Below, one piece after another: positions 28,317-30,286 of a stretch of 64,000 nt of DNA. Every line of letters begins with the position of its first letter. Position 1 is the first letter of the stretch. The notes beneath the pieces were generated by a model, which was given only the letters and a program-made list of their open reading frames with translations, was not told where the DNA came from and did not search any database. Made by a program: the position numbers and the translations under genes. Location of the stretch: contig JAIXXJ010000019.1 in NCBI GenBank assembly GCA_027490815.1, positions 186,001 to 250,000 of the forward strand, in the 5' to 3' direction. The stretch is from Streptomycetaceae bacterium. Lineage in GTDB: Bacteria; Actinomycetota; Actinomycetes; Nanopelagicales; Nanopelagicaceae.

Positions 28317-28844
28317 TCACGAAACTAAAAAGGAGGTGATGGGAATCTTTGGGTAAGTCTGGTTGATCTTTTGACGTCCAGATAAACCTGATATTTCAAG
28401 AAGTGCAAGGACGTGTACTACCTCGCCACCAATTCTTTGAATCAAATCAATTGCAGCAGCAATAGTTCCGCCAGTAGCTAGAACATCATCAATGAGTAAA
28501 ACCTTGGCGCCGGGATTTACTGCGTCTTTATGAATTTCAAGAGTATCGACACCGTATTCAAGACCATACTTTGCCGAAACGCTCTCATGGGGGAGTTTTC
28601 CTGCTTTCCTTATCGGAACAAACCCGCTGCCCAAACTATTTGCCACCGCGGATGCGAATATGAAACCACGTGCCTCGATACCAGCAATCACTGTAGATGA
28701 GTCGGCAAAGGATGCAAATTCTTTAGTAACAGAATTAAATGCCGGCCCATTTGAAAGTAAAGGCGTTATATCCTTGAAAAGAATTCCAGGCTTTGGGAAA
28801 TCTGGAACATCGCGAATGAGTTGCAAAGCCTGATCAATTTTCAT
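28317..28844 (-). CDS. apt: Adenine phosphoribosyltransferase
   Basis: Salvages adenine to AMP using PRPP. The 175-residue protein has IRDVPDFPKPGILFKDITPLL at the N-terminus, GIEARGFIF, and the PRPP motif VLLIDDVLATGGT. The start codon is one nucleotide after the 3' end of tRNA-Leu on the same strand, so any ribosome-binding site would fall inside the tRNA and none is seen. Release by tRNA 3' processing would leave an almost leaderless message. Paired with the purine permease, it supports salvage. Confidence 0.95.
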   Translation of the reverse strand: MKIDQALQLIRDVPDFPKPGILFKDITPLLSNGPAFNSVTKEFASFADSSTVIAGIEARGFIFASAVANSLGSGFVPIRKAGKLPHESVSAKYGLEYGVDTLEIHKDAVNPGAKVLLIDDVLATGGTIAAAIDLIQRIGGEVVHVLALLEISGLSGRQKINQTYPKIPITSFLVS

Positions 28845-28845
28845 G

Positions 28846-28929
28846 TGTCCGAGAGGGGACTTGAACCCCTAATCCCTTGCGGGAACTAACACCTCAAGCT
28901 AGCGCGTCTGCCAATTCCGCCACCCGGAC
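28846..28929 (-). tRNA. tRNA-Leu (GAG anticodon)
   Basis: An 84-nt class II tRNA. The acceptor stem GTCCGGG/CTCGGAC has one G-T pair, the D arm is GGCGGAATTGGCAGACGC, the anticodon stem CTAGC/GTTAG encloses TTGAGGT (anticodon GAG), a long variable arm has a CCC/GGG stem, and the T arm is AGGGG-TTCAAGT-CCCCT. The discriminator is A. CCA is not encoded; the next bases are C and then the apt ATG. Confidence 0.96.
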
Positions 28930-28942
28930 TAAGTGATGGCCA

Positions 28943-28948
28943 AGGATA
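28943..28948 (-). promoter_or_regulatory. Predicted -10 box for tRNA-Leu and apt
   Basis: TATCCT on the minus strand, 13 nt before the tRNA 5' end. It is the nearest plausible promoter for both the tRNA and the abutting apt. Confidence 0.4.
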
Positions 28949-28960
28949 GCAATCCAGTGC

Positions 28961-28966
28961 CACAAT
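28961..28966 (+). promoter_or_regulatory. Possible -10 box of the M20 peptidase gene
   Basis: CACAAT lies 6 nt before ATG 28973; it is a near match (C for the first T) to the leaderless pattern. Confidence 0.3.
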
Positions 28967-28972
28967 AGCGAA

Positions 28973-30286
28973 ATGACTTCTTCTACCTCAACGGAGATCA
29001 TTGATGAAACCATTCGAATCTGCCGAGAATTGATTCAGATTCCTAGTGTTAATTACGGTGATGGTAACGGAAATGAAAAAGAAGTAGCTGATCACGTGGT
29101 CAAACTTCTCGATGAAGTTGGAATCAAATCCACAGTGTATGAATCTGCGCCTGGTCGATGCAATGTGATCGCGCGTATAAAAGGCAGAGATAGCAATCGT
29201 CCAGGCCTTGTTGTTCATGGCCACTTAGACGTAGTACCTGCAAATGCGCAGGATTGGTCTGTTGATCCCTTCAAAGCAGAGATTAAAGATGGTTACATAT
29301 GGGGTCGAGGCGCAGTAGATATGAAGAATATGAATGCAATGATTATTGCAACTGTTCGACATTGGGCTCGAGTTGGTTTCGTCCCAGAGCGAGATATCGT
29401 TTTGGCGTTTTTTGCAGATGAAGAAGCAGGCAGTATCTACGGGTCACACTTTATGGTGGACAAACATCCCGATGTATTTACTGGTTGCACGGAGGCAATC
29501 TCAGAAGTCGGAGGCTTCTCTGTAACACTTCCTAATGGAAAGCGGCTATACCTTATTGAAACGGCCGAAAAAGGTATTCATTGGATGCGATTGACTGCCC
29601 AGGGACGAGCCGGTCATGGATCTGTGATGAATCAAGAGAATGCAATTACTCGAATTTCAGAAGCGGTGACAAAAGTTGGCACCTATCAATGGCCGCAGCG
29701 ATATAGCAAAACTGTGAAGGTTTTCTTTCAACGAATTGCCCAAGTTACTGGGCGCGATTATGACGATAAGGATTTGCAACCTTTACTTTCTGAGCTCGGG
29801 TTTGCATCTCGCATGATCGGTGCAACTCTGCAAAATACAGCGAATCCAACCATGCTAGAGGCTGGTTATAAGGCAAATGTAATTCCCGGTTCTGCCTCTG
29901 CTGTCATTGATGGTCGATTTATTCCTGGGTATGAGGATGAACTCAATGAGACGATAAGAAACATTGTTGGTTCAGATATTTCGATCCAAACAATTACACG
30001 GGACAAAGCGCTAGAGGTTGCTTTTGAAGGTGATCTAGTAGATCAAATGTGTCGATCTTTATTGCAGCATGATCCAGAGGCAATCCCGGTTCCATACGTA
30101 ATGAGTGGTGGAACCGACAATAAAGCTTTAGCCGAAATAGGAATTATCGGATATGGGTTCTCACCTTTGCGATTAGAAGCTGATTTTGATTTTATGGCAA
30201 TGTTTCATGGTGTGGATGAGCGAGTACCGATAGATGGTTTAAGTTTTGGCGTTCTAGTCTTGAAAGATTTTATGGAGAACGCTTAG
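28973..30286 (+). CDS. M20 family metallopeptidase / deacylase
   Basis: A 437-residue cytosolic zinc enzyme that hydrolyses peptide or acyl-amino-acid bonds. The dinuclear metal site is seen in VHGHLDVVPA, GRGAVDMKN, and FADEEAG; the lid/dimerisation domain follows (GIHWMRLTAQGRAGHGS), and MSGGTDN near the C-terminus ends the catalytic domain. It resembles actinobacterial dipeptidase/ArgE-like members; the substrate cannot be fixed. It is divergent from tRNA-Leu, and its stop shares TTAG with the convergent aldo/keto reductase. Confidence 0.88.
   Translation: MTSSTSTEIIDETIRICRELIQIPSVNYGDGNGNEKEVADHVVKLLDEVGIKSTVYESAPGRCNVIARIKGRDSNRPGLVVHGHLDVVPANAQDWSVDPFKAEIKDGYIWGRGAVDMKNMNAMIIATVRHWARVGFVPERDIVLAFFADEEAGSIYGSHFMVDKHPDVFTGCTEAISEVGGFSVTLPNGKRLYLIETAEKGIHWMRLTAQGRAGHGSVMNQENAITRISEAVTKVGTYQWPQRYSKTVKVFFQRIAQVTGRDYDDKDLQPLLSELGFASRMIGATLQNTANPTMLEAGYKANVIPGSASAVIDGRFIPGYEDELNETIRNIVGSDISIQTITRDKALEVAFEGDLVDQMCRSLLQHDPEAIPVPYVMSGGTDNKALAEIGIIGYGFSPLRLEADFDFMAMFHGVDERVPIDGLSFGVLVLKDFMENA

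Follow-up and report, generated by a model that had tools for sequence, protein, structure and literature searches.

The start codon of apt, which encodes adenine phosphoribosyltransferase, directly adjoins the 3′ end of tRNA-Leu(GAG) in the window (the whole 64,000 nt stretch of DNA, from a freshwater actinobacterium, that was analysed). How, then, is the 5′ end of the apt mRNA made, and which base comes first? An earlier note on this DNA had placed the apt ATG 1 nt after the tRNA, with neither an encoded CCA nor a Shine-Dalgarno sequence, and the sequence, ARAGORN, Rfam and TIGR01090 all confirm this placement.

The tRNA-Leu(GAG)-apt junction within its genome

On the minus strand, the end of the tRNA reads CTCGGAC (ending at position 72), A (73, 28846) and C (74, 28845), followed by ATG (28844-28842), where 28842 is the G of the start codon. 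The tRNA ends at 28846 (A73), or at 28845 when C74 is counted; ARAGORN gives its extent as 28845-28929 and the Rfam tRNA model as 28846-28929 (Table 1). No CCA is encoded at the 3′ end of tRNA-Leu(GAG), and there is no Shine-Dalgarno tetramer at positions -18 to -5 of the apt ATG. The identity of the open reading frame is given by TIGR01090 (204 bits versus a cut-off of 186). Upstream, the reading frame is closed by an in-frame TAG in the T arm of the tRNA, and ATG, GTG and TTG are absent between this TAG and the apt ATG. A later true start was considered and rejected; the only candidate is a TTG at codon 7, which occurs in some relatives and is not conserved.

About 14 bases upstream of tRNA-Leu(GAG) lies a conserved extended -10 element, TGCTATCCT, which is retained with variable flanking bases in most of the relatives that have the junction and in L007-L009, and which takes the form TGCTATTCT in one relative. 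It is the sole visible conserved promoter at this locus, so that the tRNA and apt are most simply read as one transcript. Nearby, on the plus strand, CACAAT (28961-28966) occupies positions -12 to -7 of a divergent M20 peptidase gene (ATG at 28973), only 43 bp from the 5′ end of the tRNA, and is a possible weak leaderless -10. At the other end of apt, the sequence encoding its C-terminus (28317-28345, minus strand) contains ATCACCTCCTTT, which resembles the 3′ end of 16S rRNA; it was rejected as a meaningful element and is probably due to chance, because among the relatives read it is common to the window and L031 only.

Table 1. Positions of the features at the apt junction and of the other genes found at tRNA ends.
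Feature	Position	Strand	Basis or remark
tRNA-Leu(GAG), 5′ end to discriminator A73	28846..28929	-	ARAGORN; Rfam RF00005, 47.6 bits
C74, encoded first C of the CCA end	28845..28845	-	predicted cut between 28845 and 28844
apt, adenine phosphoribosyltransferase	28317..28844	-	ORF; TIGR01090; N-terminus and start kept in relatives
Predicted -10 box TGC-TATCCT (extended -10), promoter of tRNA-Leu and apt	28943..28948	-	inferred from sequence
orn	after tRNA-Arg TCT, start at +0		NF003765
Cyclophilin-type isomerase	after tRNA-Ala TGC, start at +0		PF00160
Short Rieske-like protein	after tRNA-Asn GTT, start at +0		C-x-H/C-x-x-H motif read by eye
leuS	start 2 nt after C74 of tRNA-Ala GGC
ANTAR response regulator	directly after tRNA-Leu(CAA) C74		L213-L215, L217, L218, L221, L224, L225, L233-L235, L237

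The same arrangement recurs in this small, gene-dense genome (1.23 Mb, 37 tRNA matches), where four tRNAs have an ATG exactly after C74, placed before apt, orn, a cyclophilin gene and a Rieske-like gene. Exact junctions between tRNAs and start codons exceed chance here; if spacing were free, four of them among some 9-20 neighbours in the same direction would be most improbable (P ~1e-6 to 4e-5, for a null in which genes start anywhere within 100 nt).

Recurrence of the junction and its exchange with leaderless promoters

Across the genus, tRNA-Leu(GAG) lies upstream of apt in all 30 loci examined (the L010 sequence covers only its 3′ part), where the compared genomes are largely MAGs and the loci counts represent species rather than independent events. 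The junction is exactly +0 in 8 of the 30, whose apt genes have otherwise diverged (62-100% amino-acid identity), and also in L031-L033; in the remaining 22, a gap of 17-92 nt follows C74. Conservation of the 1 nt spacing, proposed earlier as a check, holds for the eight loci and breaks down in the other 22. An Apt tree needs three changes to explain the junction and, with its weak support, fits one or several origins.

Other genes show the same placement. In particular, orn has a +0 junction in 14 genus loci, the cyclophilin gene has +0 in 15 and +3 in 5, the Rieske-like gene has +0 in 2 and +2 in 4, and leuS has a GTG at +0 in 6 and an ATG at +2 in 12, the short +2/+3 forms coming to 21 loci in total. 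The pattern of a T arm followed by C74 and ATG is found in 93 of 101 genus genomes, including all 32 high-quality ones, with about 177 matches genus-wide (summed over the genomes) versus 8 for the reversed pattern, and it is matched in 11 of 11 genomes from other genera of the family. In other families, ARAGORN confirms tRNA-Gln(TTG)-C74-ATG before glmU (8 loci), tRNA-Val(TAC) before NIF3 (3 loci) and tRNA-Leu(TAG) before a VTT-domain protein (1 locus); class-wide matches in high-GC genomes are mostly chance occurrences without a tRNA. The glmU loci L253-L256, L259, L261, L262 and L264 come from a different family of Actinobacteria, whose genomes measure about 3-4 Mb. As a separate observation, the placement of an ANTAR response regulator directly behind tRNA-Leu(CAA) is common in the genus.

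A TANNNT motif about 12 bp before the start codon is the published signature of actinobacterial leaderless genes (PMC3160421), and the window contains a TANNNT peak exactly at -12 of candidate starts (13/125, or 10.4%, versus 4/513 control codons, or 0.8%). Where the tRNA is not adjacent, this motif appears at -12/-13 of the start in 14 of 14 orn loci, 10 of 10 intact leuS loci, 6 apt loci (L007-L010, L022 and L030) and 2 cyclophilin loci. With loci interrupted by a contig edge left out of the counts, every intact orn and leuS locus belongs either to the junction class or to the TANNNT class (28/28 for each), which places their predicted mRNA starts at most 2 nt from the start codon. Because orn and leuS carry the TANNNT -10 in loci with a distant tRNA or none, the tRNA end appears to replace a leaderless promoter, and this exchange suggests that selection has favoured a 5′ end at the AUG. 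For apt, the junction and the -10 at -12/-13 are both absent from 16 of the 30 loci, so that some species probably express the gene from mRNAs with a short leader; 8 cyclophilin loci likewise fall into this short-leader class. The earlier note would have taken relatives with the two genes apart as a refutation. Such relatives do occur in form, but in 6 of the 22 a leaderless promoter precedes apt, and separation of the genes does not refute a processed, leaderless message.

Position of the predicted cut, its candidate enzyme and the alternatives

Taken from the sequence, the most probable course, and one held with good confidence, is that a joint tRNA-apt transcript would be cut after C74 by an enzyme other than RNase Z to leave a leaderless apt mRNA. 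One promoter upstream of tRNA-Leu(GAG) would produce this transcript; the tRNA would fold, and RNase P would generate its 5′ end; an endonuclease would then separate C74 from the start codon, and the CCA-adding enzyme would supply the missing CA. The second product would be an apt mRNA that carries a 5′ monophosphate and has AUG as its first codon, presumably translated by the leaderless route that is widely used in Actinobacteria. At the junctions, the start codon (ATG or GTG exactly after C74) is located directly at the predicted processed 3′ end of the tRNA, and the first nine bases of the predicted processed apt mRNA are unpaired. In mycobacteria, leaderless initiation requires a 5′ ATG or GTG (RTG), which is also sufficient for it (PMC4633059), and leaderless messages make up about one quarter of the M. 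smegmatis transcripts (PMC6448022). The earlier proposal of an effectively leaderless apt mRNA whose 5′ end comes from tRNA 3′ maturation is thus the most likely reading, with a promoter seen only upstream of the tRNA, neither a Shine-Dalgarno sequence nor a -10 before the ATG, and a layout that recurs and alternates with leaderless promoters. A link between apt expression and tRNA maturation, as suggested in the note, is implied by the arrangement of the two genes; regulation would be a further step.

The position of the cut is indicated by the tRNA genes themselves. The base C occupies N74 in all 36 tRNAs of this genome, including the 29 that encode no CCA, and in all 97 CCA-less tRNAs taken as a sample from another four actinobacterial genomes (G054, G039, G048 and G037), while N75 and N76 are mixed in both sets. 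A tie between loss of RNase Z and retention of C74 was considered and dropped, since C74 is invariant in all four genomes, both those with a near-full-length RNase Z match (G054 and G039) and those with none (G048 and G037). Published 5′-end maps of P. acnes and S. coelicolor place an endonucleolytic cut within the encoded CCA, between its Cs, and for CCA-less tRNAs they give cut sites near the 3′ end only (PMC3848588, PMC4681348). If the same enzyme acts here, C74 would stay on the tRNA and AUG would come first in the mRNA. Together with the invariant C74 and the free N75, these maps make a cut after C74 more likely than the C-AUG start proposed earlier, and our analysis indicates that the apt mRNA most likely begins exactly at AUG. 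The invariant C74 could instead be a nuclease recognition site that is cut on its 5′ side, giving C-AUG.

The earlier note had named RNase Z as the enzyme, cutting after the discriminator base, which is known for RNase Z in B. subtilis. One extra 5′ base would still leave the message near-leaderless, but a search of the genus with the TIGR02651 profile, covering also G014 and G015, which are complete, gave no homologue that scored above 35 bits, while 14 of 14 control genomes were positive; what the profile matched in the genus (~18-35 bits) was short pieces of metallo-beta-lactamase, for the most part inside long ORFs that encode other proteins. The invariant C74 and the free N75 further put the boundary one base later, and a cut by RNase Z is extremely unlikely. 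Elsewhere in the class, near-full-length RNase Z matches occur in 4 of the 18 other genomes listed (245-282 bits, in each case short of the curated cut-off), and the P. acnes study states that P. acnes has no obvious tRNase Z (PMC3848588). RNase E/G, which is present in the genus (505 bits), appears to be the leading candidate for the 3′ cut. Its presence and the constancy of C at N74 also suit the main alternative, in which a non-RNase-Z enzyme such as RNase E cuts between A73 and C74, keeps C74 for recognition and releases C-AUG; mycobacterial RNase E prefers the 5′ side of cytidines and follows an RN↓CNU rule (PMC10641625), and C-A-U follows A73 here. At apt, however, position -2 is C72 rather than a purine, many tRNAs with C74 lack a U at 76, and in P. 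acnes and S. coelicolor the cuts mapped inside the CCA leave C74 on the tRNA; on balance, the C-AUG product of such an enzyme is unlikely.

Two further explanations are both very improbable. The first places an apt promoter inside the tRNA gene, yielding a primary transcript that is leaderless or has a short leader. Relatives demonstrate that such promoters exist at this locus, with a -10 (TAGGAT) in L007-L010 that precedes the ATG by six bases, but in the window there is no TANNNT at -11 to -14 of the apt ATG (-12 to -7 is CCTCTC), so that the separate primary start named earlier as a refutation lacks a -10 at the right place; the same junction also occurs at several unrelated tRNAs, each of which would need its own promoter. 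The other explanation treats the spacing as a by-product of genome compaction, with the joint RNA translated uncut or apt poorly expressed. It agrees with the small, gene-dense genome, in which +0 is the tightest spacing that spares C74. Against it, there is no Shine-Dalgarno sequence, the ribosome site would fall in the acceptor stem, the junction is also present in 2-4 Mb genomes, and the exchange with leaderless promoters argues for selection on the 5′ end. Overall, the feature first pointed out is real and meaningful, with the enzyme and the first mRNA base corrected.

Known systems and biological meaning

In animal mitochondria, tRNAs abut coding sequences, tRNA excision makes the mRNA ends, and the messages are leaderless. 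The junctions described here share the placement of a tRNA directly against a coding sequence, their 5′ ends being predicted only; unlike the mitochondrial system, they are individual pairs of a tRNA and a gene on a bacterial chromosome, C74 would be retained, there is no RNase Z/ELAC2 homologue, and leaderless promoters serve other genes in the same genome. The arrangement would work like tRNA punctuation and, as the genus gives no RNase Z match above 35 bits, is not counted as a member of the mitochondrial system. In E. coli, thrU-tufB is a tRNA-mRNA operon in which tufB has a normal leader with a Shine-Dalgarno sequence; as is predicted for apt, it has a tRNA and a protein gene on one transcript, whereas the apt junction has no leader.

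Actinobacterial leaderless genes (PMC3160421, PMC4633059) are comparable, in that the same genes in sister species have the same predicted 5′ end and no Shine-Dalgarno sequence, but the apt junction has no TANNNT and its 5′ end would be made by RNA processing, with a predicted 5′ monophosphate. The C74-C75 cut of P. acnes and S. coelicolor (PMC3848588, PMC4681348) agrees in phylum and predicted position; in those reports the enzyme is unnamed and the cut is described as tRNA maturation, and the passages on the cut do not mention coding sequences that start there. A literature search, with most subscription journals outside its coverage, did not find a bacterial junction between a tRNA end and a start codon described. 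We propose to call the arrangement bacterial 'tRNA punctuation', and strong genomic support suggests that it replaces leaderless promoters. More broadly, we lean slightly towards a tRNA 3′ rule shared by Actinobacteria (an encoded C74 and a cut between C74 and N75, not by RNase Z); in lineages throughout the class, protein genes would have come to lie at this cut repeatedly, so that exact leaderless mRNAs arise from tRNA maturation and tRNA punctuation stands in for leaderless promoters.

If true, leaderless bacterial mRNAs would have a second source, namely RNA processing at a defined base, and genes for purine salvage, oligoribonuclease, cyclophilin, leucyl-tRNA synthetase and GlmU would be coupled to tRNA supply. 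Moreover, the junctions could readily be used to assay the unnamed enzyme responsible for tRNA 3′ cleavage in Actinobacteria that lack RNase Z, and they offer natural species pairs in which the same gene acquires its leaderless end either from a promoter or from processing.
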